The notes beneath the pieces are model-generated. The model was not told the origin of the DNA. It did no database searches and was given only the letters and a program-made list of their open reading frames with translations. Made by a program: the position numbers and the translations under genes. From contig NZ_CP045455.1 in NCBI RefSeq assembly GCF_030060925.1, forward strand, positions 868,001 through 932,000: 64,000 nucleotides of DNA. Reading direction: 5' to 3'. This document shows, in pieces, positions 13,012 to 60,512 of this stretch. The DNA is from Spiroplasma sp. SV19 (lineage in GTDB: Bacteria > Bacillota_I > Bacilli_A > Mycoplasmatales > Mycoplasmataceae). Each line of letters begins with the position of its first letter. The stretch's first letter is position 1.

Positions 13012-13037
13012 AATTCCTCCTATCATTAAATTATTAT

Positions 13038-13128
13038 TGTCATTTACCAAATAAAAAACACATGCATACGATAAAAATCGTAGCATGTGTCATTGGTCAT
13101 CTACACAAATATTATACTATAAAAATTA
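13038..13128 (-). promoter_or_regulatory. Promoter plus leader ORF plus hairpin cassette, copy 4
   Basis: The outer parts match copies 1-3, but the inner stem has different bases on both arms (TACGAT against ATCGTA) and still pairs. The inner segment is 3 nt shorter, so the leader ORF frame is kept (MTNDTCYDFYRMHVFF). It drives the traG operon. Confidence 0.65.
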
Positions 13129-14863
13129 TTTTAATTTGTCAAAAATATTTTCTGATAACCAACTATTAAATTCATTATCGCTTATCTCAACAAGACTTTT
13201 TGGTTCTCTCATAATTTTTTTCTTTGAAATAACAAGCGATTTATCAAAATCAATATCCTCATCGTATACAGAAAAAATTAAAATTTGTCGATTCATAGTT
13301 TTGTTATTTGAACAAATTAAATTAATAATTTTATTTCTAGCAATTCGCGCATTTGAATCTAGTTCTTTTTCTCTTGGAGAATCAATTACAAAAAAACTAT
13401 TTAATTTAGAGATATTCATGTAATTAATATACATTCTGGATAAAGAATATATTATTGCTTCACTACCTGTATAAGTTTTTTTATTTTTTATAAAATCTTT
13501 TATTTCGACATTATATTCTAATTTTAGAGATTTAATAAATTCACTAATTTGACTTGTTAAGTCAAATGTTAAACTCTGAATTTTAGAAAGTATTGTAGAT
13601 GATTTTTCAGTGAATTCTTTTTTTGATTTTTAAATTCACTAATTTTTAAATCGATTTCATTCAAAGAACTTTGATAATTTTGAATTAATAATCTAATTTT
13701 ATCATTTTCTTCTTTAGTTCCTATATCAGATAATAAAAGATTATATTTATTTAGTTGTAATTTTGTTTCATTATATTTTTCTTTAATAGATTTGATGTTA
13801 GATAATATAGTTCTTTTATTTTGTTTTAGTTGAACCAGACTCTCTTCTAAATTTTCTTTTTTAATAAATTTAAAATAATTTTTGCTTTAAAATCCATTAT
13901 ATCCTTTAAATAAATTTTATGTTTTTGATCTGCAATCGTTACTTCATACATGAAATCCTTATTTTCTTCCATAAATTCGTTGATATAATTTATATTACCA
14001 TTTAACATGTTTAATTGAATTTCCATTTCCATAGCTGATTCTTCTATTTTTCTTTCCTCAATTAATAAACTTTTAATATTTTTTTCAAGGTTTATTAATT
14101 CCTTAAATAGTTTTTTTTGAAATAGTATTTATATTTTCAATTTCTTTAAAATCAACTTCAGATGAAAATTTTATCGATAATTGATCAATTAGAAATTGCA
14201 ATTTATTTTTGTTTAATTCATTTTCTGAAAGTTGAAAGTCAATATTAATATTATCATTTAAAACTTTAATATCATTGTCTGATATAACTTCAAATAAATA
14301 TGCATAAATATATGCAAAACTATCGCGATCAATATTAAATAAATCATTTCTAAATGTCTTTCAATCTGACCCTCAATATGATTGATCAATATAAAATAAA
14401 TCAAACATCGCTCCTGGATATGGGAGCACAAGAGATAATTTATTTTTATCAGAATTTTTAATTAAAAAGTTTTTTAAACCAAATAAATTATAAATTTCTT
14501 GTGCATATCCTTTAATTGATATTAATTTATCACGACTATAAAAATTGCCTTTTCATATTACATTATATAAATTATCTAAAATATACAGATGGGAATCATA
14601 TTTTTATTATTTAATCTTAAAAAATAAAAAATATGATTGTTTACACTCAATGAAATAATAGTCATAAAATCATCATATTTTTCACTTATATCCTCTAACA
14701 TTGTATTACAGCCAAGAGTATAAAAAGGTAATTTGGCAAGCGTTGTCTTTCCAACTCGACTATTTGCCATAATTAAATTTATACCATCTTTTAAAAAAAT
14801 TCTGTATGAACCTTTGTTTTTAAAGTTATATATACCCAAAAAGTTAATTTTTATTTTGTTCAT
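13126..14863 (-). pseudogene. SMC/Rad50-like ATPase of a nuclease-ATPase defence pair, frameshifted
   Basis: ATG 14863 follows GGAGG. The N-terminus has the Walker A ANSRVGKTT. A long coiled-coil middle and a C-terminal FFVIDSPREKE block (Walker B/D-loop type of ABC-3C and SMC-like ATPases) follow. The frame breaks four times, each in an A-run: near 14600 (A5, needs one more), 14111-14118 (A8, one too many), near 13860 (A6, one short) and near 13628 (A7, one short). Joined, it would be about 575 residues. The start overlaps the nuclease gene by 20 nt. A full-length product would need repeated frameshifting, so it is probably inactive. Confidence 0.75.
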
Positions 14864-15878
14864 AATTTGCCTCCAATATAATTTTTCCTTCCAATAATAA
14901 TCATGCAATTTGTTCATTATTCAAACTAATTTTATTTTCAGATAAAAATTCATATATTTCAATATCATTAGTTAATTCTTGAGTTTTTATTTTTGTGACT
15001 AATTTGTCGTATATAGTATTATTACCTCATTTAAAATCAATTTCATATTTCCGCAAGTCTCTAATTAGTTGAAGACCAACTGAATCAGGAAAATTAAATG
15101 ATTTTAAATAATTGTTTTGAATATAAGACATAATTTTTTCAGAATAAGAATTTAAAGAACTAAATTTTTTCATTGCATCTATAACGTTTGAATATTTAAC
15201 CCATTTTCTAGAACTAACATCAGATAAGAATTTACTTTCTAATTTAAGTGAATCATTATTTAAATCAATTATACCAATTAGTTGGCTAATTACATCTTCA
15301 ATTTGTTCAGGTGAAAAAATTTTATAAGTATCATTGTCTTTAATAAATTGTCGAAGAATATTTAAGTGCTCAGAATTTGGGTGATCAAAATAATGAATGA
15401 CTATTCTTGAATTAATGTTATTACTTTCTATCAATGATAATTGTTCATAACCTAATATTTTGGAATATACTTCACCGCTATCAAAATATTTACTATTAAG
15501 ATGCAATTTCCCACTAAATATAAATTTTCCAAAAACATCTATTTCATTATTGATATCCTGAACTAAATTTATTCTTTTCTTAATAGAATTTATTACATCA
15601 TAATAATTATTTAAATTTTCTGTATTATTTGTGCCTACATACTTACCCTTAACTTGACAGATTGTTGTTGAATAAATTTCATTATTTTTTGCAAAAAGAA
15701 ATAAAATATCATCAACAAGTTCATAAAACGCGTATACATTATAATCTTTTAAATTTAAAAGTTCATACAATAAAAAAGTTTTTTGAAATGTATATCCTTT
15801 ATTTCCATAACTTCCTGATGTGTTAATTGTCTTGTCATTAATAATTGATAGTTTTTCTTTATAATCATTTTTATTCAT
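14844..15878 (-). CDS. Cap4/DUF4297-like dsDNA nuclease, defence-type
   Basis: 344 residues from ATG 15878, intact, with two TGA Trp codons near the end. The N-terminus carries the pattern of DUF4297/Cap4 nucleases: YTFQKTFLLYELL, then a Glu and DD (YELVDDILFLF) and TICQVKGKY, fitting a PD-(D/E)xK site. In Lamassu and ABC-3C systems such a nuclease is the effector controlled by an SMC-like ATPase, which here is the next gene, translationally overlapped. With the ATPase broken, this nuclease would be unpartnered. A middle (LmuC-like) component is not seen. Confidence 0.7.
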
Positions 15879-15914
15879 AACCAAAATATCCTATCTAATT
15901 ATTTTTATTATACA

Positions 15915-15950
15915 ACAAAAAAATTGCGCTAGCATAAATTAGTGCAATAA
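15915..15950 (-). terminator. Intrinsic terminator
   Basis: On the minus strand ATTGCACTA/TAGCGCAAT (one mismatch) is followed by T7. It closes the group of genes upstream (15988-17090) before the nuclease gene. Confidence 0.65.
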
Positions 15951-15987
15951 AAATTAATTTCTTTAATTATTTTTATCAAGGTTAGAA

Positions 15988-16199
15988 TTAAGTTAACATT
16001 TTTATTTCCATATTAACACACCCTGAGTTTGAATTATATATCAGTGGGATTGAAGAATCGGAATACATTTTATTATTTCCTAATGTCTTTAAATATAATA
16101 TAATTTGTCTGTTATTATTATTGATGAAATTAATTCATAAATATAAATCATCTGTATATTTTAAATTAAATTTTTAATTAACTTATTGATTTTTTTCAT
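15988..16199 (-). pseudogene. Hypothetical 70-residue protein, one-base frameshift
   Basis: ATG 16199 (MKKINKLIK...) hits a stop after 12 codons, but adding one A in the A5 run at 16171-16175 gives a 70-residue frame ending at 15988 (...YTDDLYLWINF...). No family recognised. Overall evidence for coding is the long open code-4 frame. Confidence 0.4.
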
Positions 16200-16202
16200 C
16201 TT

Positions 16203-16463
16203 CTAAATACCTCTTAATACATCCATTAATATTTTATAATCATAAAATTTAAATAATATATTTCTAACTCATCAATAATGTTTACGTTCTAATTTGGTAT
16301 CATTTACTCATGGCAGAATTTCTTGATTCTTTTTTTCCTTTTCAACAGCAACATTTATCTTATTAAAGGCATCTAAAATTTGGTCTTTTGTATAATGACG
16401 AAACAATGTATTTTTTAATCATCAATAATGTTTATGCTCTAATTTATTATTTAAATTTGCCAT
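16203..16463 (-). CDS. Small protein with two HYWW repeats
   Basis: 86 residues from ATG 16463. It contains an internal duplication: KLEHKHYWWLKNTLF (about residues 7-21) and KLERKHYWWVRNILF (about 58-72), each followed by a similar helix (KDQILDAF, YKILMDVL). Each WW pair uses TGA codons. The repeats suggest a two-lobed binding module, possibly helix-turn-helix-like, but I recognise no family. Located just downstream of the MazG-like gene. Confidence 0.6.
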
Positions 16464-16466
16464 AAC

Positions 16467-16760
16467 TTAATTACTCTCCTTCTTTACTTTTTGGGTTAAT
16501 TCTTGATCAATAATATTTAATGTTCTTTTAATTTTATTAAACATTATTGCTTCTATTTCTTGACTATTAAATTTAAACAATATTTTTAACTGTTCTAACA
16601 TAATATAACAATCAGCCATTTCTTCTTTAATTTGATTTTTATTTGATTTTCCTTTGCTGTTTTTACATAACTCTTTAATTAATTCTGAAAATTCTTCAAT
16701 AGCTTGTATAATTTGTTTTTCCTGGTAATGCAAAACAATTGGTTTTAATAAATTATTCAT
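16467..16760 (-). CDS. MazG-like nucleotide pyrophosphohydrolase
   Basis: 97 residues from ATG 16760 after GGAGGAAAT. The all-alpha NTP pyrophosphatase pattern is present: AIEEFSELIKEL (first ExxE) and KEEMADCYIMLEQL (ExxD), the metal-binding residues of the MazG fold. Such enzymes hydrolyse (d)NTPs to NMP and PPi; phage and plasmid copies adjust nucleotide pools. Near-adjacent to the HYWW gene. Substrate not predictable. Confidence 0.75.
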   Translation of the reverse strand: MNNLLKPIVLHYQEKQIIQAIEEFSELIKELCKNSKGKSNKNQIKEEMADCYIMLEQLKILFKFNSQEIEAIMFNKIKRTLNIIDQELTQKVKKESN

Positions 16761-16778
16761 ATTTTATTTCCTCCTAGG

Positions 16779-17090
16779 TTATTTAAACAATGTTAATTGA
16801 ATATTTTTTTTCTTATTATTTACTGTCATTAGTTTGCATTCTTTTATTCGATAAATTCAATAGATTGTAGAATGATATTTACAACCCTGTGAATGTTCAT
16901 AACCACAGACACAATTTTTTCAACCATCTAAATGACAAGAAAAACAATGTTCCTTGCATATTAATATTTTTTTATCATCTAAAATTTTTTGTTTTTTCAT
17001 ACGATTATTGTTACATTCAAGACAAAATCACCGAATCTTATTTTTATAAATACATTTGCAAGTAATTTTTTGCATTTTCTTTTCTTTCAT
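16779..17090 (-). CDS. Cys-rich zinc-finger-like protein
   Basis: 103 residues from ATG 17090. Cysteines come in CxC, CxxC and CxxxxCxxC-like groups (CKC, CLEC, CKEHCFSC, CVCGYEHSQGC), enough for two or three Zn sites. A basic segment (NNNRMKKQK) lies between them. Likely a nucleic-acid or protein-binding Zn protein of the element; no exact family recognised. Confidence 0.55.
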
Positions 17091-17114
17091 AAATATCGCT
17101 TCCTTTTAATTTCA

Positions 17115-18894
17115 TTAATTTTTAAATAACTCATTGAAAATTGCCTCTAAAACTTGAATTACAATTGCATTTCCTGCTAAAAAATACATTTTAGATTTTG
17201 GTAATTTAACTTTATTAATATCTTCATCTTGTCATCCCATTAAACGTCAATATTCAATATGCGATAGATGTCTAATTGCATATAATTTATTTTCGATATT
17301 AAAGATAGCAATATTATTCTTTATACAAAATTCAATTGTTAATTCATTATCAAGTTCTTTTGCAACCTTTTGACTTCATCCATGATTTTCGGTTAAAGTT
17401 GGTGTAATGCCATCTTCATTTACAACAGTATCTACTTGCGAATAATTTTGATGGGGAATTTTAATTCTACCTTGAATATTAAAATTTTTTAAAGAAATCG
17501 GAAAAGCAATTTTAGAACTTTTTAAATTCGTCGTTAATGTATCAATAAAAGTTTTGTAATTTGAACTATCATAAACTCTTGATTCTTGATTATAATTATT
17601 TTCAATATTGATTTCTGTTTTCCCGCGATCATTAAAATTATTAACCTTGATAGGTACTAAAATATTTTGAATTTTACTGGCGGGTAAAGTTCCTATTAAT
17701 TTATCATCCTTTCAATATCGATTATATGCCCCATTCGCATTATCGATTGCCTTAGCTTTCCCATCTAATTCCCGCGGGAATTGCCAATAATTAGAATATT
17801 CCTCAAACTCCAATGGTACTAACACTTTTACATTAGGGGAAGTAGTTAACGTTGAAGCAGTTGTAACCCCTATTTTATTATTTGAGTGGACATTAGATAT
17901 TGGAATCGTAACTTTCCCTTCCTTATTTATTTTGCCAATTGGTCTTGGTGATCCATCTGACATTTTATACTCTTTCGTCTTGTCAATTTCATAAATTGAT
18001 ACTAACACTTGGGCTGGCGATTTATAATCTCTTGCACATAACGTTCTAACTTCGTTTAAAGCAATATCATTAGCACTTTTAAAATTAGTTAAGGGGATTA
18101 AAACCTTTGTTTGATTATTATGTGCTTGTAAAGGTGCTGTAACATTTTTTCCAACTTTATTATCAGATTGCCGACCACTTAATGGTAAATAACAAAACCC
18201 GTTATCATTAAATTCTCACTCTGTTGTTTTATAATATCCTTTTTCAATCGCTTTAGCTAATTTATCTTTAGTAAATCATAACTTAATATCGGTTTCATTA
18301 ATACTATGCAAAAAACTTTTTAATGGTTTACAATTAATTGTTTTCAAATTATCTCAATCAAAATTATTTTCTTGATTGTTTTTAATTGAAATAACAAATA
18401 CTCGCTCGCGACTCTGCGGAATCCCAAAAGCTTTTGAATTTAAAACTTTTCAAGTTGATTTATATCCTAATTCTTCCAGTTTAGTTAGATAATAATCAAA
18501 ATATGGTTTAAATTTTTTTAGATATTAAATTTTTAACATTCTCTCAAATGATATATTTTGGCCTTATCTTAAAAGGCAAATCTTGAATCAGACGTAATAC
18601 TTCCATATATAAGATACTACGTCCTTTACTAATATCTTGTTTACCAGCATTAGAAAAATCCGTGCAAGGTGACCCATGAGCAAAAACATCAACCGTTCAA
18701 TCATATTCTTTAATATCTTTTGTAATTTGGTCATTATTATGCAAAGCATTGTATGCATCAACTGCATATTTCCATCATTCAATATAGTCTCTTGTTTCAA
18801 CTTCAAAACCAACATTTTCTAATGCTTTGCGAAAAGTGCCAATTCCACCAAAGGCTTCGATTAATTTAATCTTTTTCTTTTCTGTTAAATTCAT
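17115..18894 (-). pseudogene. C5-cytosine DNA methyltransferase, split by one frameshift
   Basis: ATG 18894 opens a typical Dcm-type enzyme: AFGGIGTFRKAL (SAM binding), GSPCTDFS (catalytic Cys77) and WENVKNL (ENV 118-120). An A7 run at 18513-18519 shifts the frame to a stop at 18508; with A6 it continues for about 465 more residues to 17115, including the C-terminal RHLSHIEYWRLMGW and LAGNAI blocks. The large middle part contains a target-recognition region. So the enzyme is broken unless the A-run slips. It overlaps the 3' end of the preceding methyltransferase gene. Confidence 0.8.
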
Positions 18895-19422
18895 TGAACT
18901 TGGCCACCATTTAAACTTAATTTATATGTAATTCAGACACAACCTTGATTAAAAGATCCTGTGCATCCTTTGAATTTAATCCGTTTTTTTAAAAATTAGA
19001 ATCTGTAAATCATCTTTAAATTTCTCAAATAAATTAGCTCTGACAGGTGTTTCTAAGGTCCTCAAAGGTAATAACATCGCAAATGGAATATCTAAATTAA
19101 ATAATCGTTTTAAGATTTCATTTTGAATACTAAATGGTGGATTAGAAATAATTAAATCACAATTATTCGGTGGTGGTGTAATAAAGAAATCATTTTGCAA
19201 ATCATCAAAAATATGCGTTGCCTTGAAATTCGATAAATTATTGTTTAAAGCTTCTTGACGAAATTCTGATTCTAAATGATTAAATGGTAACCAAATATTT
19301 CGATATTGTTTAATATTGATGCGATTGTACATATCTTGGACAACTCATTTTGGGGTTTCAATATGATTTTTATCTTTGATTTTTCATTCCAATGATGTAA
19401 TTTTAAATTCTTTAGTCTTCAT
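18885..19422 (-). pseudogene. Amino-methyltransferase with NPPF motif, frameshifted near its end
   Basis: ATG 19422. About 149 residues with CDLIISNPPFSI, the motif IV of DNA N6-adenine or N4-cytosine methyltransferases. An A7 run (18984-18990) leads to an early stop at 18976; with A6 the frame continues (...RIKFKGCTGSFNQGCVW...) to 18885 and overlaps the dcm-like start. Short for a complete enzyme and lacking an obvious FxGxG motif; resembles small phage-type methyltransferases. Confidence 0.65.
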
Positions 19423-20716
19423 TTAATACTGACTCCAATGCTAATTGTGTATAAGATTTTTGCTCTATATTCCTTAGTGCTAAATTTTTTAATTCAGATT
19501 CTTTATTTATTTGATAATTCATTACATACTCAATTCTTTTAGATGCAATTGTAAAATATTCTTCTGAAAGTTCATAACCAATAAAACTATAATTCATATT
19601 TTTAATCCTATTAATGAATGCAACAGCTTTCCCTGTTGAACCAGAACCTAAGAATGGATCTAAAATAGTGGCATTCTTAGAAGCAAATAAACTAATTAAA
19701 TGTGTCATTAATTCCATTGGCTTTACTGTTATATGAGTATTTTTACGTTTATTTAGACCATCAGATTTCTCTAACCCTTCTTCGCGGTCAATTAAAGATG
19801 CTTTGGCACAATAGAAAAAACGAGAAGCACTACCACTATCTCCAATAGTTTCAATATTATTCTTAATATTATATTTACCATAAATCCCTATTTTTGAACC
19901 ACTCGTAGTAATATTATGGATATTACTATTCATATAGCCACTCTTTGTATTAGGAAATAATTTTAAAACGTCTTCAGAACCATCATGAATAAAATTACTT
20001 GGAAATCTACCCTTTAAATTTGGATTTATAGCATCAAGATTCTTATACCCATATCCTTCTGTTCTTCGACCTGTTCTTCCGCCAATGACTGGTGTTTCAT
20101 TTCCATAACTAATTCTATTATCATCAATATTCATTGCCCCAATTCCCCATTTTAATAAATTATTTGCATAATTTTTATCCAATGGTTTTTGAGCAAGAAT
20201 TATTGGTTCATAGGCTGGTTTTAAATTTAATGTCTTTCACCCCTTTCATTTTTTAGCTAATTTAGTAATTGGTTCATATTCTTGAATATTAATGCCCTTT
20301 TCTAACATTTTGCCATTATACTTAAATTTACTTGCAAATGATGTTTCTCTACCACGATGAGATACTTGTGCTATTTTTTTATCAATAATCATGGAAACAT
20401 CCTGTGCTTTTGGAAAACCTGAGCCATATACTCAACTAATAGTATCTCTTAAAATAAAGCCGGCATCTTCAATTGCACAAGCAACTCTATGATATTTAGT
20501 TGGATGACCAAATACGAGTAAAATTCCACCCGGTTTTAAAACTCTTAACAGTTCAATTCATGTTGCAATGTTAAATACAATTTTAGTTTTATCTCATTTT
20601 TTATTCATCATACCAATTTCATATGGTGGATCAGTACATATAATATCAATTGAATTACTATCTAAGTTTTTTATCATATCCAAACAATTTCCAAGTTCTA
20701 AAATAAAATTATTCAT
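19412..20716 (-). CDS. DNA N6-adenine/N4-cytosine methyltransferase (beta type), intact
   Basis: 434 residues from ATG 20716 with several TGA Trp codons. Motif order is motif IV (CTDPPYEIG, DPPY 29-32) first and the SAM-binding DPFLGSGST (353-361) last, which defines beta-class amino-methyltransferases. The central region is a candidate target-recognition domain. No restriction endonuclease is next to it, so it may be an orphan protecting the element from host restriction or altering transfer. The only one of the four clustered methyltransferases without a frameshift. Confidence 0.85.
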
Positions 20717-20717
20717 T

Positions 20718-21511
20718 TTACACCTCATTCCTAAAATTAGTTATTATTAATTCTTGGCCAAGTTTTGGTTTGCGATTATGACAATTTGTAGAGCTATATA
20801 CTCATTCAAATTCATGAACGTTAAATTCTTGAAATAAATCCTTAATAAATTCAGAATTATCAATACTTAAAATTCACTTACCTTTAATTTTTAAAATATT
20901 ATTTTTAATTCTTGAAAATCAATTTTTGAATGTTTATACGGTTTCCCTTTATTGTAATAATATGGAGGATCTAAATATCAAATAATATTTTTATTATTAC
21001 TATACCGATTAATAATTTCCTTATAATCTGAATTGAAAAATTTAATCTTATATTTAGGATTAACTAATAGGTTTTTGACATTTTCAACTCTTTTTAATTT
21101 ATTAACATTAAAATTTTGTTGTAACCTCTTATCTGTTCAGACACCTCATTCCTTACCATTGAAAGTTAAAGCATTTTTCATTAGAAATTCTTCGCCTTGG
21201 TTTAAACAATAATCATTTAGCATTTTTGCTTTCATTTCATTGATAGTTTTGGCATTAGGATAAACTAACTTTTGCAAATAATCTAATTCAATTAAATGAA
21301 TTCCTTCTTGTCAAAAAGAAATTAAGTCGGTGTGTAAATCATTGAAAATCACTTTCGTGCATAACTGTTGCTCTAAGACATTTAATCCAACAGATGCTCC
21401 GCCACAAAATAAATCTATAAACATATCGAATCTACCCGGTAAAAATGCTTTAATTTTATCAAAATGTTTAGCTTTACCACCAGGACAAGATAAAGGACTA
21501 ATAAATCGCAT
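20718..21511 (-). pseudogene. Dam-family (MTase D12) adenine methyltransferase, frameshifted
   Basis: ATG 21511 begins MRFISPLSCPGGKAKH; DLFCGGASVG (motif I) and LDPPYYYN (motif IV) identify the D12 class. After the DPPY region the frame is lost in a short A-run (20902-20906); adding one A restores a frame to TAA 20718 with the tail FRNEV, whose stop lies 2 nt before the next ATG. Dam enzymes methylate adenine, often in GATC. Probably inactive as written. Confidence 0.75.
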
Positions 21512-21521
21512 AAAAAGTATC

Positions 21522-22256
21522 CTAACAATTTCGAAAGAAAAAGTATTTATTTTCTTCATCTTCTGCACCATATTTAGTTTCAAAAATATCTTTACACATC
21601 TGTTTATATTCATTTCAAGAAATATCATAATGAATATTTTTATCATAATTTGCTAGAGCATCTTTCATTCAACAATGAAAAACGTATTCGCTGTCTAGTC
21701 TATACCACGCCCTAATCTCGTGAATATTAAATATTTTTTTAAATTCATAAATAAAATCATCGGCATATTCGGAATATTGTTTATTGTCATAGTCATAATG
21801 CATGCTATTTTTAAAAAATATTATAAGATCATTGATTCGTTGCGCTATTGTATATTTTTCCTTAATTTTATTTTTATATTCTTCGTTGAATCTATCTGTT
21901 GGATAATTATATATAAAATTTAAATATTTTGTTTGATTATATTTATCTCAAATAAAATTATATTCCTCTAATGATTCTAACGCTGCGGTTGGATATTTAT
22001 TTAAGTTAACTCTATAATCACTATTTCTTAACTGAATTTTTTCAATACTTCAGTCTTCTTTATCTTTTTTAGCAAGATTTTTAGTAATTTCTTCTTCTAG
22101 CTTTGCATATCTAGGATTATCAAAAAGAATATATTTATGTTTATTTTCATATTTTATGTCTTTTTCTTTTAATAAGAAAACAGCTTTATATTTTTCAAAT
22201 ATTCTACATACTAATTGCATTTTTCTTTTATCCAAAACTAAACTATGATTTGCCAT
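21522..22256 (-). CDS. Hypothetical protein of the methyltransferase cluster
   Basis: 244 residues from ATG 22256 (TAATG overlap with the preceding gene), with several TGA Trp codons. Soluble, helical, rich in Tyr, Asn and Lys. No transmembrane segment, no known motif. Ends at 21522, 11 nt before the Dam-like start. Probably phage- or plasmid-derived. Confidence 0.6.
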
Positions 22257-22411
22257 TAAATCACTCCTTTACATTCTTGACACTTATAAAATTTATTCAT
22301 CGTTAATCATTCAGATTTTGTAATTTTAAATTCTTTATCACATCTAATACAGTCAATGAGAATAACACCATTAATACAATCTTTCGGTTTTGAATAATCT
22401 TTTTTTGCCAT
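22256..22411 (-). CDS. Small zinc-ribbon protein
   Basis: 51 residues from ATG 22411. CIRC near residue 21 and CQEC near the end form a treble-clef or ribbon-like CxxC...CxxC site. It lies 3 nt after the topA stop and overlaps the next gene by 1-3 nt, so it is in the topA operon. Perhaps a nucleic-acid-binding accessory. Confidence 0.55.
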
Positions 22412-22413
22412 AT

Positions 22414-24204
22414 TTAACTCACTATGTTTTTACAATCTGGATAATTATTACAAGCTTTAAACAAATTTCCTTTATAACTTTTCCGTTGAATAATATAACC
22501 TATCTGACATTTACTACATTTTATAGAATCTTTAAAAATAACATTTGTGGCATTACTATAATCTAAAATAAAATTCTTATAAAATAATTTTAAATATTCC
22601 GTTTTATTAATTTTATTATCAGCAATGTGATCTAAGATGTCTTCCATTTCCGAAGTATATTTTTCATTAATAATGTTTGCAAAATATTTTTGTAAAATAG
22701 TATAGGCTTTTATCCCATTATCGGTAGGAACAATACTTTTTTTCTCAAATTTGATGTACTCTCTATTAATCAAAGTTTTCATAACAGTTGCATAGGTTGA
22801 AGGGCGTCCTACTCCTTCTATTTCTAATTTCTTAATTAAATTTGGTTCAGTGTATCTAGCGTTAGGTTTTGTAAAATTTTGTTCTGCTAATCATTCTGTA
22901 GTTAAATTTAGGATTTGGCCAATTTCAAATTGATAATCAAAACTATTTAAAGCTATTTCTTGGAGATCATAATAACTAGTAAAAGTATATTTTTTATAAT
23001 CCATTTTACAGATATAACCATTATTCTCAAAAAGAACTCGATATTTTTTTCCCACTTCGTTTGCCATTAAAGCAAATAACGTATTATTATAAATTAATTC
23101 ATATAGCATAAATTCACTATGATTGCCAATTTCTCTTTTAGCTTGCTCAACTGTTAACGAAATATTTGTTGGGCGGATTGCTTCATGGGCATCTTGAGCA
23201 TTTTCTCCTAATTTCTTTGGTTTATAACTGCCAACATACTCTTTGCCATAATTATTTTCAATATATTCATATGTATCTAAAACAAAATCATCATTTATTC
23301 GAACGGAATCAGTTCTTGGATATGTAATATAACCCGTTTCAAATAAATGCTGTAGTAAACTTGTTGTTCTTTCACTTGGGAAATTTAACATTACACTAGC
23401 ATATTGTAAAATACTTGATGTTGTAAAAGGAGTGTATCTATTTTTGCTAAAATTTTCTATCATAATTTCTTTTACAACCAATTTATTTGATAATTCATTT
23501 AATATTTGATCTGCTAATGTTTTTGAATTAATTACTTTTTCTTTTACAATTTCTTGTTTTGCTTTATTTAAAAATAATTCAATATCATTACCATTTTGAT
23601 ATTCTTGTTTAATTGTCCAATATTCTAACTTGTTATGCTCTTTTCGTTCTAATTCACGTTCAACAACTAATTTTAAAGCGACCGATTGTACACGCCCTGC
23701 TGATTTTAAATTAACTGCTTTTTGTAACAACCCGGATAATTTAAAACCCATTATCCGGTCAATCATTTGGCGAGCTTGTTGGGCATTAACCAAACTATAA
23801 TTTATCGCACTTTGTTTTGCAAAAGCTTCTTTAACTGCTTTCTCCGTAATTTCATTAAATATTAAACGAACTGCTTTATTTTTACAGTTTAATTGTTCTT
23901 GTAAATGCCAAGCAATTGCTTCGCCTTCGCGGTCAGGGTCAGTCGCTAAAATAACCTTATCAACTTTTTTTGATAGCTCATGCAATTGTTTAACTGTATC
24001 TTTTTTAGTTTCTAATAAATTATAAACGGGAGTCATTGTTTCTAAATCAATTCCTAATGCATATTTTTGATTCTTAATAGCTAGCTCAGTTATATGTCCC
24101 ATCGAAGCTTTTACAATAAAATTATGGTTAGGAAAGGCTTGTTCCAAATAAGCTTTAACTTTTGTTATTTTGTTTGGTGATTCTAAAATCACTAAATACT
24201 TCAA
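22414..24204 (-). CDS. topA: DNA topoisomerase I (type IA)
   Basis: 596 residues. The start is TTG 24204, preceded by GAAGG; no ATG fits. Toprim motifs are ILESPNK (6-12) and ATDPDREGEA (87-96). The catalytic tyrosine is Y295 in YITYPRTDS. One C-terminal four-Cys zinc ribbon (CSKCQ...CNNYPDC) closes the protein. Type IA enzymes relax negative supercoils through a 5'-phosphotyrosine link. Plasmid and ICE copies help transfer or replication. It is shorter than chromosomal TopA with multiple ribbons, so I infer an element-encoded paralogue. A duplicated copy of its first 20 codons is at 25438-25569. Confidence 0.9.
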
Positions 24205-39559: not shown

Positions 39560-40474
39560 TTACCGAAGGGACTTATCAAAAGGAATTCCTGATGCCTTTG
39601 GAATTTTGGAATATTTGGAAAAGGCAACCATTGTTACTAACGCTAGAACAAATGGTAAGATTTTTAACAATTGGTTTGATGGATCTGCAATATTTCAACC
39701 AGTAAATCGTCATAATGTTCCTGCTAATGCAATTAAGAAACTAAATAACACCGCTCCTAAGGTAATATATTGAATTCTTCATTGTCCAAAAATCATAATT
39801 GCTAAAGCAATATAACCTTGCCCTTGCACATCACCACGAAATTGACCAGAAACATAATGTGTAAACATTGCTCCTGCTAAACCAGCTAAACATCCTGAAA
39901 TAACAACCGCTTTGTATCTTGTTTTAATCACATTAATTCCAGCAGCATCAATTGCATTTGGATTTTCACCACAACCAGCATAACGAATTCCGGTTTTAGT
40001 AAATCTGAAGAAAACAAAGGTAAAAATCGCTAAAATTATTGCAATAATTAAGAAAATATTAATAATTTGTGCTCGATCAATTCCAATTGTACTAAAACCC
40101 GTTTGAATCATATTTCCAGCAGCTAAAGCGGGAATACTAACAAAGAATAATCCTAATCCAGTTGCTAATAAATTTAATGCTGTTCCTGAAATTACTTGTT
40201 GTGCTTTTAAAGTAATTGAAGCAAAACCATGTAATAAGGCAAATGCTCCACCAACAATTGTCGCAATTAGTAAAGCAATAATTTGCATTCCATTTCCATA
40301 TTGCGAAAGAGCTTTTCCTAACAATGCATAAACCAAGGCTCCAATAATCATCATTCCATCAATCGCAATATTAACCACCCCAGCGCGTTCTGAATATAAT
40401 CCGGCCATTGCCGCAATTAATAATACAGCAAAAAGGACTGAACCATTAGCAAATAATTGTGAAACTGCTTCCAT
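39560..40474 (-). CDS. Nucleoside-type ABC transporter permease 2
   Basis: 304 residues from ATG 40474. Eight or more membrane segments; ERAGVVNIAIDGMMIIGAL and CGENPNAIDAAGI are hallmarks of the BmpC/YufQ-type branch of the BPD_transp_2 permeases. The TAATG overlap couples it to the first permease. The C-terminus (IPFDKSLR) ends about 20 nt from the dead insertion sequence, so it is intact. With its neighbours it imports nucleosides, an essential source for mollicutes. Confidence 0.88.
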
Positions 40475-42639
40475 TAATTTTTTCCTCCTTCTTGCATTAA
40501 CTTACGATATGCTGTTTTTTGACGAAGATACTCTGTTTTTAAAATTTTATTATCTTCACCAACAGTTTTAATAATTGTCTCCAACTTTTGATTTAATTCG
40601 TTTTTTCATTGCGGTAAATTTGTGCGATGTTTTTCTTGTACAACTTTATTTTCAGCAACAAATTTTTCCTTCATTGTTGCTAATTGGGTTGCTAAGTTTT
40701 GCTTTAACATTATCACTTCTTTTTGAACTGCAGAATCATTTTTTAATTTAACATCAATTACTCTTAATTCATGTCTGATTTCTCTTCGTATTTGATGATT
40801 TGTTATTTTAAACTGATGAATTTCTTGTCGTTGTTGCTGTTTTAGTTTTTTTATCTCTTGGTTTAATTGTTTAATAATAACCTTTTCTTTACTTTGTAAT
40901 GTTTTAAAATCAGTTAAATATTTTTGCTGAATTTCATCAAAAACAGGATAATAACTTTCTCGTAATTTTTTAATGTCATCTTCTTGTTTTAAAACTAAAT
41001 CACCATATTGCGTTTGCAATTGTGCCAATCTAGCATATAAATCTTTCTTAGGCAGACTGTAAAGTTGTGAAAGTTGTTGTTTTGTTTGCCCTTTACATTT
41101 TTTAATTGCTTGTCCATAATTTCGTTTTAAAAAACTAACCTCTTGTTTCTTTACTAAATAATCATTTTTTACTTGTACAAAATGATCCATTGCTGAACCA
41201 AGAGCAATAAAAACAGCTAAATTATATTTTGTTTTAATTCCTCGTTGACCAATTTTTGCAGCTTCTTTATATTTTGAATTTGTAAAGAAACGTATTTCTG
41301 TTTTTAAAGTTGTAATTTTTCCAGCATATAATGTTAACTGATCATTAATTTCATCTCGATAAGTTTTGATTAGTGCCTTATCCCCTTGTTGTTTTAATTC
41401 TTGTATTTTCACCCGATAGGTTTTATTGAGTGTCTTAATTTCTTTTTGATATGTTTTAATTTGTTGCTTATATTCATTATATTCTTGTTTCCAATCAGCA
41501 TGATGATGAATATTTCACCAACGGCGAATTCAAAAGATTGGTTTAAAATAAATGAACAAGGCCGAAATGGCTGTCATATAAATAATAATACCAAAGATTA
41601 ATTGTCCCATCTGTTTTGACATTTGAAAATCTGGTAATTGTGTAGTTTGCAAAGCTGCTGTTTTAATAATTCCTCATAATAAAGCAATTGGCAAAATCGC
41701 AAACCCATTAGTAAAGGCTACTAACGCAACAGCAATCGCATCAAATCCAACCACCGGTAAAGCATCTGTTGTAAACTGTAAGACCGTTGACTGGGTCATA
41801 TAATATAACATCCCTAAAACTCCGGCGAGTCCACCTGATAAGGCCATTGAAACAATCATATAAGCACGAACATTTGTTCCAGCATATAATGATGCATTAC
41901 GTGATTTTCCAACCGCTTTAATTCGAAATCCTAACACCGTATAATTCATAATGAAAATAACTGTTATTAACAATAACATTGCAATAATAAACGGAATAAT
42001 TCATGTTTGACCATTTAATACTAAATTAAAATTAGGAGCAGTTGTTACAATATCAACTGTTGAGTTATGATTTGAATTTCACATTCCATAATCAGGATTC
42101 ATAAACATTCACTTCATTACATATCAAACAATTCAATTTAACATAATTGTTGAAACAACTTCATGAATATTAAAATACGCTTTTAATGCGCCAGCAATTG
42201 CGGCTAAAGCAGCTCCCACTAGAATTGAAATAAATAAGGCCCCCACAACACCAGTGCCTTGACTTATAGCTGGATTTTTTAATCCTAACACAATCGTCAT
42301 ACTACCAGCTAATAGCATTTGTCCGGGAACTCCAATATTAAATAGTCCCGCTTTAAATCCAACCGCAACGGCCAATCCCGCAACAATATAAATTGCTCAA
42401 TATGTTAATGTTTGGTCTTTTAATAACGGATGAAAAGCTAAACGAAAAACATAACTAAAAAACAACAATGGATTTGAAGCATTTGCCCCAATAATAATAA
42501 AGCTAAGAATAGCCCCGGCAATAATGGCACAGATAGATGCTTTAAAATAATTCATTTTTGTTTTAAATTCATTTGACCGAAAGAAAATTTTGGTTTTTTG
42601 TCTTAACAATCAGCCATAACTTTTAATTTGTTTTTGCAT
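40474..42639 (-). CDS. Nucleoside-type ABC permease 1 fused to a long coiled coil
   Basis: 721 residues from ATG 42639. Residues 1 to about 375 are a BmpB/YufP-type permease (NIGVPGQMLLAGS, FNIHEVVSTIMLNW, GFRIKAVGKSRNASLYAG). From about 385 to 721 is a cytoplasmic, highly charged coiled coil (KEIKTLNKTYRVKIQELKQQ onward). A typical permease of this family has about 350 residues, so the tail nearly doubles the protein. The frame is continuous through TGA Trp codons. Overlaps the ATPase gene by 17 nt. Confidence 0.85.
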
Positions 42640-44191
42640 CAATTTGAGTTCCTTTCTGCTGATATGTCCCAGCCATCATTAATCCAATTTCTTCACGCTT
42701 AACTTTATTCCCAAAAACTTCGCCTGTTACTCGACCATTATGTAAAACAACAATTCGATCAGCTAAACTTATAATTTCTTCTAATTCATAAGAAACTAAT
42801 AGCACAGCTTTCCCTTGGGCTTTTTCTTCTAAAATCTTATTATGAATATATTCGATTGCCCCAACATCTAACCCACGTGTTGGTTGAACAACAACTAAAA
42901 TATTGTGTTGGCGTGATAATTCACGACCAATAATTAATTTTTGTTGGTTCCCACCCGATAATCCTCTACTCATAGCAAACCCAGAATTTGCACCACGCAC
43001 ATCATATTTTGTAACAATTTGTTGGGCATACAACTGAATCGCAGCCTTATTTAATAAACCATAATTTGAAAATGGTTTTTGATTAATATTTTGTAACACA
43101 ACATTATCAATTGCATTAAAATCTAAAATTAAACCATACTTATGCCGATCTTCAGGAATATGAGACATCCCATTTTGATATCGTTCATAAATACTTTTTT
43201 TAGTAACATTAATATCATTAAAAATGATTTTTCCTGATGTTACTTTTTCTAATCCGGCTAGAGCATTAACTAACTCAGTTTGACCATTTCCTTCAACTCC
43301 AGCAATCGCCACAATTTCACCCGCCTGAACAGTTAAATTAAAATCATCCAACGCCATTAAACGGGTTAAACCTTTTTTCTTTACCGACAAATTTTCAATT
43401 TTTAATAATGTTTCAGTTTGTGGTGATTTTCCTGCATTTTTAATAGCAACCAAATTCCGCCCCACCATTGCTTCAGCAATTCATTTTTCATCTTTATCTT
43501 TAACATTAAATGTTTCAATAACTTTTCCCCGGCGAATAACAGTGGCACGATCAGCAATTTTCTTAACTTCATCTAACTTATGCGAAATAAAAATAATTGT
43601 TTTCCCATCTTTTTTTAAATCTAACATAATTTTTAATAATCCCTCAATTTCTTGTGGTGTTAACACTGCTGTTGGTTCATCAAAGACTAAGATATCAGCT
43701 CCACGATATAAAATTTTCAGAATTTCTACGCGCTGTTGCATTCCAACTGAAATGTTTGCAATTTTCGAACGAAAATCAACTTGTAAATTATATTTAATTG
43801 CAATTTGAGCAATATCACGTGTTTCTTTTTGACGATCAAGAAACACTTTCCCAGCTACTTTTTCATGTCCTAACGTAATATTATCTAAAACAGTAAAAAT
43901 ATCAATTAATTTAAAATGTTGGTGTACCATTCCAATTCCTAATTTATTTGCTTTAATTGGGTCACTAATATATTCTGGTTTCCCATTAACAAGAATTTCA
44001 CCTTTGGTTGGTTCATATAATCCAAATAAAATACTCATTAATGTTGATTTTCCGGCACCATTTTCCCCAATTAAAGCATGAATCTCACCTTTTTTAACTT
44101 TTAGGGTAATATCATCATTTGCAATTAAATCACCAAACACCTTTGTAATTTGCTTCATTTCAATTGCATATTCATTATTATTTGTCATCAT
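42623..44191 (-). CDS. Nucleoside-type ABC transporter ATP-binding protein (two domains)
   Basis: 522 residues from ATG 44191 (or 44188). The first ABC domain has Walker A GENGAGKST (42-50), ISVGMQQRVEI and Walker B LVFDEPTAVL; the second has GVEGNGQTEL, SGGNQQKLIIGREL and a VVQPTRGLD Walker B in which Asp/Glu are not conserved, as is common in RbsA/BmpD-like proteins. Belongs to the nucleoside importer family. One TGA Trp joins the halves. Confidence 0.9.
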
Positions 44192-44206
44192 TATGTCCTT
44201 TCTTCA

Positions 44207-45607
44207 TTATAAAGCTGCTTCAATTGCATCTAAAATATAGTCTTTTAATTTATCACTACTTTGGTAAGTATTTGTTAATGTATTTGAAAATGCTTTAGCA
44301 GCAACTGCTGGTTGTCCCCCAATTCCATGTGAATAAACATCTTGTAATACTTCAACAATTTTGTCAAAAACAGTATCTTTTGCATGTTGATCTGTTTCGT
44401 TATGAATGAAAGCAACAGTTTCTGCATTAATTGCCTTTGTTTTTTCAATTCCTGTCCAAGTTGGATGTTGAATTGATGATTGATCAGTATTGATTCAACA
44501 GTCGCTTGTTGCTTTACTATTATCTCAAGTTTGGTTATTTGTTTGATAACCACATGTTGATGAATAAATATTTTTTAATGCTTCTGAAGTTGAAGTCGCA
44601 ATTTCTTTTAAAGCACTTGTTACAATAATTTCTTCACCATAAATTTTTGATTGTTCAGTATCAACCCCAATAACTTTTGCCATTGATTTATTATATCTAA
44701 TCCGGTCAATCGTATCTTGTGTTTGTGGCCCGGCAACTGGAAAAATGATACTTGCTCCCCGTGAAATTAATTCGTCAGAAATATCTTTTCCTTGGCCAAC
44801 CTCAAATGATTGTGAAAATCATGATTCATTACTTTTAACAACATTTTGAACTTTTTCAATTGGTTGTAAAGCAGTAACTTTTGGATTCATTTTTTGCACT
44901 TGTTTTAAAATATCATTTTTAATCTGAAATAGCTTTGGAAAAGCACTGTTACCAATAATTATATTAAAGATATCAGCTGCAACAATAAAACCTCACATAT
45001 AGTTTGAAACAGCGCCCGGGTTATCCATTCCCCCATAAGTTGCAATTTTTAATCCACTTGGATATCGTTCTTGATTTGCATTTAATCATAAAGCTGTAGC
45101 AATTCCAGCAAAAAAACCAGAAGATTCAGCTTCGTAAGTTATTCCAATAATATTTTTTGCTAATGGTCTTGTTCCATCCATTCCTAAATGAATGTTTTGA
45201 CTACTTCCATCAATATAAATAATATTTTGGGCCACTTCTGCTGCTCAACCAATTGTATTCCCATGGGCAAACCCTGGTAAAATTAAAGTTTTAGCTCCAG
45301 CAATATTTGCTGTCACATAAGCTGTTTTAAAATCAGACGGAGTTTGACTAGCTGGTTCAAAATAACTAGCCCGTCAACTACTTTTTTTCCACTCGGTGGC
45401 AGAAACTTTTTGATCTTTTTGTGAAACAACATATTTACTTGCTCCATCTCATGCTGATTCATTAAAAGATGCATCAGTAATTGTTCCTGCATCCGTAATG
45501 ACTCAAATATCACTATCAAAAGTGTATTTTTTTGCACAAGCAACAAGAGAAATACCTGAACTAGCTATTAACATTGCTGCGGTTAAAAAACTGAGCAATT
45601 TTCTCAT
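44207..45607 (-). CDS. BMP/Med-family substrate-binding lipoprotein
   Basis: 466 residues from ATG 45607. Lipobox LVAC; the mature N-terminus WVITDAGTITDASFNESAWDG is the signature of the BMP (PnrA-like) family of purine nucleoside binders, followed by GMDNPGAVSNYMWGF and RGASIIFPVAGPQT. It delivers nucleosides to the ABC importer encoded downstream. No frameshift; short overlapping frames inside it are shadows. Confidence 0.9.
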
Positions 45608-55201: not shown

Positions 55202-55786
55202 TTAATATGTTACTTCATGGCAATGACGACAACGAGCTTCATATTTATCTTTCTCACCAATTAAAACAATTGGATCATAATAATTAGCGGGTTTACCATT
55301 AATCAAGCGTTGAGTACGGTTTGCTAAATTTCCACATTTAACACAAATTGCATGTAATTTTTTTACTTCTTCTGCTCGAGTCATTAACTGTTCAACATTT
55401 AGAAATGCTTCACCACGAAAATCTTTATCTAAGCCATTAACAATAACAATAATTCCTTTATCTGCTAACGAATCAGCAACCTTAACAATATTGTTATCAA
55501 AAAACTGAATTTCATCAATTCCAATGACATTTGTTGTTGGTTCAATTTGATTTAATAATTCTGTTGAATCTTTCACTGGTCTTGCTTCAACTGAATTTTG
55601 ACTATGACTAACAACTTTGTTTTCACTATAACGGTTATCAATTTCTGGTTTAAAAACCTGAATGCGAAATTTGGCATAGCTTAACCGTACTAAACGACGA
55701 ATAAACTCTTCTGTTTTACCAGCAAACATACAACCAGTAATTACCTCAATTCATCCCATTTGGGCCTTGCTATTTAAAAAATACAT
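55202..55786 (-). CDS. tdk: Thymidine kinase
   Basis: 194 residues from ATG 55786. P-loop GCMFAGKT (18-25), VIGIDEIQFF, the lasso segment and Zn cysteines CVKCG...CRHCH are typical of type II (TK1-like) kinases. Phosphorylates thymidine for salvage, matching the nucleoside importer in this window. The start is 3 nt after the DHH gene's stop. Confidence 0.94.
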
Positions 55787-56767: not shown

Positions 56768-58692
56768 TTAAATATTAACAACTAAATTATTTTTAATTTT
56801 ATCATAAATTAATAAGGCGTGTTTATCAAAATATATCGTAGTCATTTTTTTCAAATTTAATTCTTTCTCAGGAACTAAAACTTTTAAAACTACTTCATTA
56901 TTAGTTTCAAAAAAACAAACAACTGACTTAAAAATTTTCTTAATTGTTTTAACTTGTCCTCTATACATTAAATATAAATCTTTATTAAAATATTTTGTTT
57001 TTTCAAATGAAATCAAATTTGGATTAATAGCTAGCCAATACTCCTTCTGATTAACTAATTTAATTTCTTTTGGTAATTTAATTTTAATTTCTTCATTTGC
57101 TAACATATTGTCTTTCTCAAAATATTGCACTAAAAAAATATTTTCAGAACTATTGTACATTGTTTGATATAAATGCATTGTTTCAGGGAAAAACTCTGCC
57201 TGTTCTTTTGTCATTAATTTGTAATTATTATTATCATCAAAAATTAGTAACTTAGTAACATAATTTTTAATATTTTCAATATTTCTTGTTAAAACTAAAA
57301 ACGTTATTTGTGGATTATAATTTTTAAAGTTAATAAAATTTCATTTAATTCAATAGCTTCATTATGTGTTAGATTATCAAAAGTATTATGCAAAATAATT
57401 AATTCTTTATTTGTTAAAATTGCATTAATTAATCTAATCTTTGTATGATCAAAACTACTTAAATTTTTAGTAATTTTAAATCAATTCATTTTAATATTTA
57501 AATTAGTCATTAGTTCTTTGACTTGCTCAAATGCTTGATTATAAACTGTTACAATTTTTTCATTTGCTGCAGCAATCGCAAGTGAATTATCTTCTTCATG
57601 TTCGATTAATTTATTATTTAATAATGCTAAATGGTATTTATGAAAATACTCTAAAACTTTTCCTTTAATAATTGTTGCTTCATCTGGCAACAAATTAGAA
57701 ATTAGTTGTTCTTGTTTTTGATTATAATTAAACCATTGGTCTTCTGCTAATTTTAATCAAGTAACAACATTGATAGAATTACTTTTATGCAAAATCCCTT
57801 TAATAATATTTTTTCGTTCACTATCACGCATAACAGTATTCATAACGTTAAGACGATATTTCTTTAAAGCTTTCCTTACTTTAATTAGCTTATATCGTTC
57901 ATAAAGAATTTCAGTCTGCAAAATTTTTAAATACTTCTCACAGACAAGTTTTGCCCCAATAAACCCAAAATTTTTATTTTTAATCTTTCTTTTCTTTGCA
58001 ATTTCATAACAATCACATAAATAATCTAATTCTGAAATATAATAAATCTTATCTCATAAGGCTTGTAAAAACGCAAGAAAACCTTCGTAAACACGAATCT
58101 CTTCTTTTTTGTAAGTATATGTATGCAAACTTTGAATTAAAATTGAATCCTTGTCATCTATTAAAATTTTAGCAATTTCTTTTTTATGAAATTCACTAAT
58201 TTGTGTTAAATACGTTTCAATTCATTCTTCTTTAATTCGAATTGAATTATGAAAATATTCATTAATAATTTTATCTGTTTTTGATATTAAATCTTTTTTA
58301 TTTAAATCATTACCTATAAAAGTTAAGTTTTTATAATGGTATTTATTTTTAATGTATTTTAAAGAACTATCATGTAAAAATTTTGGTGTTTTCAAAATAT
58401 GATAGGCTAACCGTAGTTTAGTTGGCAAAAACCCTAACCGTAATGTCCCTGGTGAAACATAACCAATTTTTCGTTCTTTTGGAAGTAAGGCAGTAATATT
58501 TTGATTATTTAAGTAAATTTTCCCACTGCGTGGTTTTCTTTTCCCTAATAAAAGTTTTAAAAAATATAACTGTGAAAATTTGTTTTCAAAATAAGTTCCT
58601 AGAACCTCTTGGCTATTAACGTCAAAATTTAAATCAGTAAAAACCATTTTTTTATAACGTTTATATTTTAAATTACTAATCTTTAATCCCAT
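56768..58692 (-). pseudogene. Pseudo-ABC ATPase-like protein, one frameshift
   Basis: ATG 58692 opens an ABC-like fold (MGLKISNLKYKRYKKMVF...SGKIYLNNQNITALLPKERKIGYVSP), but the P-loop is GTYFENKFSQ instead of GxxGxGKS/T. Later LSSFDHTKIRLINAIL and LIILHNTFDNL align with the signature and Walker B, again without catalytic Asp/Glu. A helical insertion of some 300 residues separates them. The frame is lost in the T5 (A5 coding) run at 57321-57325; one added A restores it to 56768. The protein probably once had a non-enzymatic role. Confidence 0.65.
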
Positions 58693-58800: not shown

Positions 58801-59685
58801 TTACATAATTTTATATCTAATTTCCATCCCTAAACTCAATCTTGGTTGATAATCTAACCCTTCAATATTTAACACAAAATTAAATGTTGTCGGGATTTTA
58901 ACTAAACTATTAGCAGGTTCGTCTAACTTCTTAATTTGATTACCCTTTGGGGGAATAATTTTTTTAAGATTAAGTTTTTTATTAAGACCCTTATTTTCAC
59001 TAATAAAATTATCAATAAAAGTTTTTGCTTTTTCTTCCAAATACTTTGTATTTATTGCATTACTTAAATCATTAAAATCTAATTTACTCTTATCAATTTC
59101 AATATTATTTTGTTCAATATAACCCTTGTATTTTTTCAGAACATATTCATTTAACTCATCACTTTCATTTGGAATAATTGGAATTTTAAAAGTTACTTTT
59201 TGTTCAACATTCATGTCAGTAAAACGCATTTTTCAAACCCCAGCTTCGAACCATTTCTCAGCTACTTTTAAACATTTCACAGCTAAAGTAACATTAACCA
59301 TTTTATTTTCATCAAGAGTCAATTCTTGATCACTAAGAATGGTAAAGGTTGCCGCAAACGGGTAATCTAAATAAACGCGAAAATCATTAATTGCTGACAC
59401 ATCTTCTGCAAATCCTAATGGAGCAATTTTGCGTTGTGGTAAATTTAAAAAAAGAGTACTTAATTGATCGCTTGTGGGCTTAAAAAAATACTTTTGACTT
59501 CCCTCTTGCTTACGAATACCAAATGATTGATAAATATCACCTTGCAAAATTGTAAAATTACTCGGTAGTGTCGGTAAATTTTCCTCACTTTTATTATTTT
59601 GATTTAAATTTTGACAACTAACTAAACTTGTTGTCGTTGTTAGAGCCAATGATAAAATTAGTAAATTAGTTAATATTTTTTTCAT
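58801..59685 (-). CDS. Lipoprotein downstream of the B12-type riboswitch
   Basis: 294 residues from ATG 59685 (one TGA Trp). Signal and lipobox LVSC, then an unrecognised extracellular domain, partly beta and partly Lys-rich helix (EYVLKKYKGYIEQNN). It follows the secreted DUF4430 protein by 51 nt and probably belongs to the same transcript. May be its membrane anchor or a partner; inferred from context only. Confidence 0.7.
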
Positions 59686-59735: not shown

Positions 59736-60203
59736 TTAAATATTAGTTAAAATAAAATCAAATAATTGGTCTTGTTCTCAAACATCGCGAAAAACTAAAC
59801 CATCAATTCCAACCGAACAATAATTCGTTGGATTAGTACTAAATTTACAAAATGGATGTGTACTTGAGTAAATTGCTCAATAATTCTTATTAAAATCTGT
59901 TGTACGATAGTCAACTCTAATTAACAGACGTCCAAATGCTGTTTCATTAAGTCCAAAAAAATCTGAATCAGATGCTAACATATCACCTAAACTTACTAAC
60001 GAATTATAAAAAGTAATTCTATCGACAACTTTCCCACTTTCATCTTTTATTGTGATTTTAACACTATTAACGTGATATCCATCCGTACCATTTTGTGAAG
60101 TTTTTTCCGTAATTGATGGAGTTACTTGTTGTAATGTTATATTTGCTATAGTTGTTGCACTAATCGTTAAACTTGTTAATGCAGTTAATATATTTTTAAC
60201 CAT
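59736..60203 (-). CDS. Secreted DUF4430 (transcobalamin-like) protein
   Basis: 155 residues from ATG 60203 (SD GAGGAG). A signal peptide (MVKNILTALTSLTISATTIA) without lipobox Cys. The rest fits DUF4430: SVKITIKDESGKVVDRITFY, a helix (VSLGDMLASDSDFF), then YWAIYSSTHP...SVGIDGLVFRD.W, parallel to the W.yyvNG...vGi..y.l.dGD pattern. This domain occurs in B12-binding proteins such as intrinsic factor and bacterial cobalamin uptake lipoproteins. A cobalamin-type riboswitch precedes it, supporting a B12-binding role. Confidence 0.7.
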
Positions 60204-60262
60204 GCTTTTGTTCTCCTCTTGTTTTTTATGCTTATATTTTTATTTTATGTGTAAAATAAATT

Positions 60263-60430
60263 AATCCTATTTACCTAGTAGGACTCTTATTAAATTTATA
60301 AGGCCGGTCTACTGGCTTAACTTCATCCTACTAGTTAACCCTTCCCAAATTATTATTCAGTGGTTTATTAACATTCGTCAGTTTTACAGTTGCTAGGACA
60401 GCTTAAGACTTTCACTTAATTCCCTTTAAT
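60263..60430 (-). promoter_or_regulatory. Cobalamin-type riboswitch
   Basis: On the minus strand the conserved core appears in order: GGGAA, AGTGAAAGTC, AGCTGTCCTAGCAACTGTAA, CCACTG, TTGGGAAGGG, GATGAAG and the B12 box AAGCCAGTAGACCGGCC. A 7-bp hairpin (60263-60285) with a 9-base loop downstream fits the P13 position, and CCTACTAG there can pair with CTAGTAGG or AGTAG in the core. 60 nt later comes the ribosome site of the DUF4430 gene, so translation control is likely. Confidence 0.8.
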
Positions 60431-60461
60431 CCTTTATAAACTTTTAAAGTAGTCTACTTTT

Positions 60462-60490
60462 ATTATAAACAAAAAAAAAAAAAAAACACT
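60462..60490 (-). promoter_or_regulatory. Riboswitch promoter with a T16 run in the spacer
   Basis: TATAAT (60462-60467) is preceded on the minus strand by T16 (60471-60486) and a weak -35 region within the rpmE terminator arm. The same T-run is the tail of the rpmE terminator. Length changes would alter both termination and promoter spacing. Confidence 0.5.
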
Positions 60491-60512
60491 TTTATCTTGT
60501 TAAGATAAAAGT
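60488..60512 (-). terminator. rpmE terminator
   Basis: ACTTTTATCTT/AAGATAAAAGT with a 3-base loop, followed by G and T16, 9 nt after the rpmE stop. Confidence 0.8.

Follow-up and report, generated by a model that had tools for sequence, protein, structure and literature searches.

Mollicutes are usually listed as having abandoned cobalt and vitamin B12; in a 2009 survey, 88% of those analysed had lost the use of both nickel and cobalt, and no cobalt transporters were found (PMC2667541). Why, then, should a Spiroplasma carry what looks like a cobalamin riboswitch in front of a gene for an exported protein? The locus lies in a 64,000-nt stretch of DNA (the window, positions 868001-932000) of a 1,456,516-base (1.46-Mb) single-contig genome that uses genetic code 4, and we analysed it together with the rest of that genome and a comparison set of 320 genomes of the order. 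The reading that we favour, with a probability of roughly 0.8, is that the riboswitches of this genome form an OFF-type cobalamin regulon that joins B12 capture and import to a B12-independent source of deoxynucleotides, in a mollicute whose only detected ribonucleotide reductase (RNR) is the B12-dependent NrdJ.

The original prediction, made from the letters of the window, placed a cobalamin riboswitch on the minus strand at 60263-60430, with the conserved blocks CCACTG and GGGAAGG and a B12 box. A covariance-model scan confirms the riboswitch: the minus strand matches RF00174 over the full model (1-189) with 74.8 bits (gathering score, 31.5 bits; E = 1.3e-16 for 64 kb), and all three blocks occur in it, the B12 box being intact (GCCAGTAGACC). 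The predicted extent shifts at both ends: the 5' end of the aptamer lies at 60451, some 20 nt upstream of the predicted one, and the segment 60263-60285 is a downstream hairpin, P13, rather than part of the aptamer. Directly after the terminator hairpin and T run of rpmE (around 60471-60512) stands the hexamer TATAAT; it is absent from the listing of the consensus scan, and for that reason we offer it as a probable -10 element of the riboswitch's own promoter.

The loop of P13 (L13, CUAGG, 60274-60278) is complementary to CCUAG in loop L5 of the aptamer, giving the window riboswitch the L5-L13 kissing loop. Most of the other parsed riboswitches pair L5 UCCCAG with L13 CUGGG (L5 or the B12 box stayed unparsed in about 30 of the 70 copies), whereas the window copy, like both of its orthologues, pairs UCCUAG with CUAGG, the latter in a 7-bp hairpin that is identical in all three. 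Both partners differ from the usual pair, which points to a compensatory change in which the two sides were altered together. A 9-bp helix that is mutually exclusive with P13 dominates the predicted fold (-39.1 versus -34.6 kcal/mol in a forced-fold comparison); it is probably the switching helix, which with P13 would make up the usual two-state layout. Taken as a whole, the window leader has a folding energy typical of its shuffled versions (z = -0.03), and none of the four leaders of this genome contains an intrinsic terminator passing the consensus scan, which requires three G-C pairs and is strict for DNA as A+T-rich as this. A+T-rich hairpins can be seen by eye in the leaders, the clearest being AAAAAGCATT..AATGCTTTTT in the leader of the 327-aa lipoprotein gene, and on their account transcription attenuation is a candidate mechanism, beside a block of translation. 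We infer that cobalamin is the ligand of the riboswitches and that it would act by repression.

Table 1. Features of the riboswitch locus (window positions) and the four riboswitch loci of the genome (A to C elsewhere in the genome)
Feature	Position	Strand	Basis or content
155-aa exported protein, predicted DUF4430/transcobalamin β-domain fold	59736-60203	-	ORF under code 4; family and fold matches
294-aa lipoprotein, lipobox-like ...SLVSC, second gene after riboswitch	58801-59685	-	ORF listing
Ribosome-binding site AGAGGAG, ahead of first gene	60213-60219	-	sequence
P13 hairpin AGUCCUA(CUAGGUAAA)UAGGAUU, 7 bp	60263-60285	-	kissing-loop parse
3' arm of alternative 9-bp helix	60275-60283	-	minimum-free-energy fold, forced-fold comparison
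5' arm of alternative 9-bp helix, inside aptamer	60326-60334	-	minimum-free-energy fold, forced-fold comparison
Cobalamin riboswitch aptamer, RF00174	60285-60451	-	cmscan and whole-genome search
Loop L5 (UCCUAG), kissing-loop partner of L13	60393-60398	-	kissing-loop parse
TATAAT, probable -10 element of riboswitch's own promoter	60462-60467	-	read from sequence
Locus A	1353182	-	163-aa anchored paralogue of window protein and 218-aa membrane protein; convergent with nrdJ
Locus B	1083204	+	327-aa lipoprotein and small membrane protein
Locus C	377426	-	deoxynucleoside salvage operon
Locus D (window locus)	60285-60451 of window	-	155-aa protein and 294-aa lipoprotein

The first gene after the riboswitch was predicted to encode a signal-peptide protein with a DUF4430 pattern and the next a lipoprotein, and both genes are present. 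The first frame is open over its 155 codons under code 4 only (TGA read as Trp; two in-frame TGA) and begins with a signal-peptide-like segment. Relatives of the 294-aa lipoprotein occur, among the genomes compared, only in the two that have this locus. The DUF4430 pattern stood in part. Searched by itself, the 155-aa protein returns no PF14478 (DUF4430) match, falling short of the gathering score, and no other significant Pfam match; seven of its 23 aligned relatives do match PF14478 (best 1e-8), and two relatives exceed the cut-off (35.9 and 31.3 against 23.8 bits). Because it lies below the Pfam cut-off itself, we treat the protein as a remote relative with the DUF4430 fold and do not file it as a Pfam member. 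NCBIfam was uninformative for the window proteins, and scans of genome contigs with the 155-aa protein and with the transporter S-component described below as queries gave no named relatives.

The fold is well supported by profile and structure prediction. Run against the PDB, the family profile has its best match in 3u7z, a DUF4430-type protein (E = 0.0014), followed by gastric intrinsic factor (E = 0.008, covering chain residues 292-374). An AlphaFold model of the protein, confident over about residues 45-155, gives Z scores of 12.4 to 3u7z and 10.0-11.2 to the β domains of transcobalamin, intrinsic factor and haptocorrin, with the next unrelated structure at 5.0, which places the predicted transcobalamin β-domain fold well above background. 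Identity to these structures is about 11-17%. The shared predicted fold spans residues 45-155; unlike transcobalamin, intrinsic factor and haptocorrin, the 155-aa protein has no α domain and consists of one small domain attached to a signal or anchor segment. Most likely it is secreted or signal-anchored and would retain cobalamin at the surface of the cell in the manner of the transcobalamin β domain, a putative binding role that follows from the modelled fold.

A whole-genome search found four RF00174 copies, at 110.6, 87.3, 76.5 and 74.8 bits. With its full-length aptamer, B12 box, peripheral CCACUG/GGGAAGG element and L5-L13 kissing loop, the window riboswitch is like other members of RF00174; it is unlike typical ones in its mollicute host, in being one of four copies in a reduced genome and in the salvage operon among the targets. 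That operon (locus C) encodes a DeoD phosphorylase, a deoxynucleoside kinase, a transketolase, a KDPG-type aldolase and, with a Pfam score slightly below the cut-off, a deoxyribosyltransferase-like protein. The operon starts about 400 bases past its aptamer; the riboswitch would govern it, though an independent promoter may lie between the two.

The remainder of the window has its own features. At 55202-55786, about 4.5 kb downstream of the riboswitch locus and in the same direction (minus strand), a gene that by eye is thymidine-kinase-like would add another deoxynucleoside salvage enzyme. Also by eye, the minus-strand genes at 39560-45607 (a BMP-type lipoprotein, an ABC ATPase and two permeases) resemble a nucleoside importer, which could feed the salvage operon with nucleosides; the window scan found no RF00174 match at these genes. 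At 56768-58692 (minus strand), frames of 462 and 148 aa stand where G172 and G173 have one 641-aa gene, so the gene is probably disrupted in the window genome. The region 4300-24200, mostly on the minus strand, appears mobile-element-like by eye, with large VirB4-like and VirD4-like ATPases, DNA methyltransferases and a topoisomerase; the only plasmid matches of a 7.5-kb piece of its conjugation genes are to Spiroplasma citri (67% identity over 4% of the query). A DUF3800-I RNA (Rfam; 3143-3254, plus strand; 47.2 bits against a cut-off of 44.2) adjoins the conjugation-like gene region.

What would such a genome need B12 for? Its NrdJ scores 1314 bits against a cut-off of 854 in NF005991, the equivalog model of the vitamin-B12-dependent RNR, and has the NPCGE motif, a C-terminal CxxC and no small subunit, as a class II RNR. 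Searches of the genome found no NrdF, NrdD, PduO-type adenosyltransferase or PF02310 B12-binding domain. NrdJ accordingly stands as the single RNR, and the single B12 enzyme, detected in the genome. A corrinoid adenosyltransferase, CobA (BtuR type), is encoded elsewhere in the genome. The family profile of the 218-aa membrane protein of locus A matches 6fnp_A, the solved ECF-CbrT, at E = 1.9e-15 over 155 columns; its relatives match PF12822 only under the cut-off, and the best Foldseek matches of its model are S-components, but at E > 0.1. EcfT (PF02361), by which we judge the ECF module to be present, occurs in all 14 members of the genus and, in the window genome, away from this locus. A class II RNR and an ECF transporter were partners to look for under the original prediction; the former is present, as are a CbrT-like S-component and EcfT for the latter. 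The original idea of a B12-sensing and capture module gains support from the riboswitch score, the fold comparison, NrdJ, the CbrT-like protein, EcfT and CobA, with cobalamin the predicted ligand. The whole genome adds what the window could not show: the riboswitch has three companions, and a deoxynucleotide supply independent of B12 appears to belong to the regulon.

Since the only RNR detected needs B12, the switches appear to control B12 capture and a back-up supply of DNA building blocks. Leaders bound by cobalamin would be OFF, and scarce intracellular cobalamin would let expression proceed. Capture and import (loci A and D, perhaps B) would then be turned on, and likewise deoxynucleoside salvage (locus C), as a deoxynucleotide source independent of B12. 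The capture set would comprise two transcobalamin-like (DUF4430-fold) exported proteins and the lipoproteins; the CbrT-type S-component would work with the shared ECF module, CobA would adenosylate the imported corrinoid, and NrdJ would use the resulting adenosylcobalamin.

Comparison across the order shows the same association. RF00174 scores above its cut-off in 35 of the 320 genomes, including 13 of the 14 in the genus, the window genome among them. The genes that follow 70 riboswitches fall into few groups: CbrT-like, DUF4430-like, lipoproteins, ABC components, CobA, nrdF-nrdI-nrdE, nrdD-nrdG and the salvage operon. Nine genomes of the genus have a riboswitch-led salvage operon, truncated in G171; within the genus the salvage riboswitch occurs only where NrdF is absent, and the three genomes with NrdF have a riboswitch ahead of nrdF. 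In all, 17 genomes have a riboswitch above cut-off just upstream of nrdF, 14 of them with NrdJ over its cut-off. Across the 320 genomes, the riboswitches precede B12 uptake genes and whichever B12-independent deoxynucleotide route is present, be it nrdFIE, nrdDG or salvage.

At one locus (L065 of G166, 2079-5139), a cobalamin riboswitch stands ahead of the class III RNR pair nrdD-nrdG; the related copy in G169 is broken and full of stops. In co-occurrence counts, which like their p-values ignore the relatedness of the genomes, a CbrT-like protein is found in 31 of 37 NrdJ genomes versus 6 of 283 others, and within the family the corresponding counts are 20 of 20 versus 1 of 40 for intact CobA and 19 of 20 versus 3 of 40 for the DUF4430-like gene family. 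Three genomes (G197-G199) have nrdJ, cbrT, cobA and a DUF4430-like gene in one row. Fourteen of the 37 NrdJ genomes are without a riboswitch above cut-off, and 12 genomes have a riboswitch without an intact NrdJ, some of these riboswitches being well kept.

These distributions bear on a different account, which we regard as unlikely: the riboswitch would be genuine and the 155-aa protein not a cobalamin binder, its DUF4430 fold serving in adhesion, for another corrinoid or a metal, or as a partner of the lipoprotein. No function is assigned to the DUF4430 domain, the title of 3u7z says no more than 'putative metal binding protein', and the window paralogue, itself lacking a significant Pfam match, is present in few genomes. 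Against this stand the DUF4430 matches of the seven relatives, the 163-aa paralogue in the CbrT operon beside nrdJ, the relative in the nrdJ-cbrT-cobA cluster of three genomes and the way the gene family tracks NrdJ; moreover, the human transcobalamin β domain has been solved alone with cyanocobalamin bound, as the title of 5np4 states.

Traces of decay in relatives raise the further possibility that the window locus is a decaying duplicate, left over from a B12 system in the course of being lost and with no present role. Four genomes without NrdJ (G183, G188, G189 and G190) have weak RF00174 matches of 22-27 bits that lie 309-349 bases upstream of the nrdF match, and G195, whose NrdJ is broken, has a 38-bit riboswitch match; these weak or degenerate riboswitches ahead of nrdF are probably relics. 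Neither NrdJ nor NrdF was found in G165, G167, G170, G171 and G175, and NrdJ and the uptake genes are gone from several members of the genus. The 327-aa lipoprotein gene is broken in G165, G167 and G170, while the salvage riboswitch scores well in these three and in G175, its leader conserved; G175 also keeps CobA without NrdJ. G172 keeps NrdJ and CobA but has no CbrT-like match; its DUF4430 and lipoprotein genes are broken, and so is its orthologue of the window locus. In the window genome, however, all four riboswitches exceed 74 bits, both frames of the locus are open, a compensatory change keeps the kissing loop, and the NrdJ, CbrT-like and CobA genes are intact, which makes a locus without function improbable. 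That the RF00174 match is a chance or compositional product of an A+T-rich genome (bias term, 6.1 bits) has negligible probability, refuted as it is by a window score that exceeds the gathering score by 43 bits (E = 1.3e-16), by the copies found genome-wide and by matches in 13 of the 14 genomes of the genus, ahead of functionally coherent genes.

For the regulon that we favour, the closest described uptake arrangement is the nrdJ-cbrS-cbrT-pduO cluster of L. delbrueckii with its transporter ECF-CbrT (PMC5997447, PDB 6fnp), which follows the same logic of a B12 auxotroph, a class II RNR standing beside a CbrT S-component and an adenosyltransferase; neither 'riboswitch' nor 'DUF4430' occurs in the text of that paper. 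Here, by contrast, CobA takes the place of PduO, and the uptake operon is led by a riboswitch of its own and encodes a protein predicted to be exported with a DUF4430 fold.

B12 riboswitches are known on B12-independent isozymes, which B12 shuts off; in Streptomyces, one controls the class Ia RNR operon nrdABS, a B12-independent substitute for the class II enzyme. The mollicute arrangement would be alike in that B12 shuts off a B12-independent substitute for the RNR, and differs in the substitutes: an RNR of class Ib (nrdFIE) or class III (nrdDG), or deoxynucleoside salvage. We lean towards the view that a B12 riboswitch was recruited to deoxynucleoside salvage as a stand-in for the class II RNR, that the same switch sits on the stand-in of each mollicute lineage (class Ib, class III or salvage) and that decay of B12 use leads to obligate salvage. 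In the open-access literature, outside which most subscription journals lie, we found no description of a mollicute B12 regulon with deoxynucleoside salvage, no paper joining Spiroplasma and class II RNR, and none joining transcobalamin-like proteins, bacteria and riboswitches. Each part is of a known kind; as far as that search tells, what is new is the mollicute B12 riboswitch regulon, its transcobalamin-like exported proteins and the placing of salvage under B12 control.

The lineage ties the synthesis of DNA precursors to a single scavenged cofactor, and RNA sensing appears to move it from B12-dependent synthesis to salvage and back. It presents a B12 economy built on one enzyme and exported proteins that may be the bacterial counterparts of intrinsic factor, while its relatives have gone to varying lengths in losing the system and include some with orphaned riboswitches.
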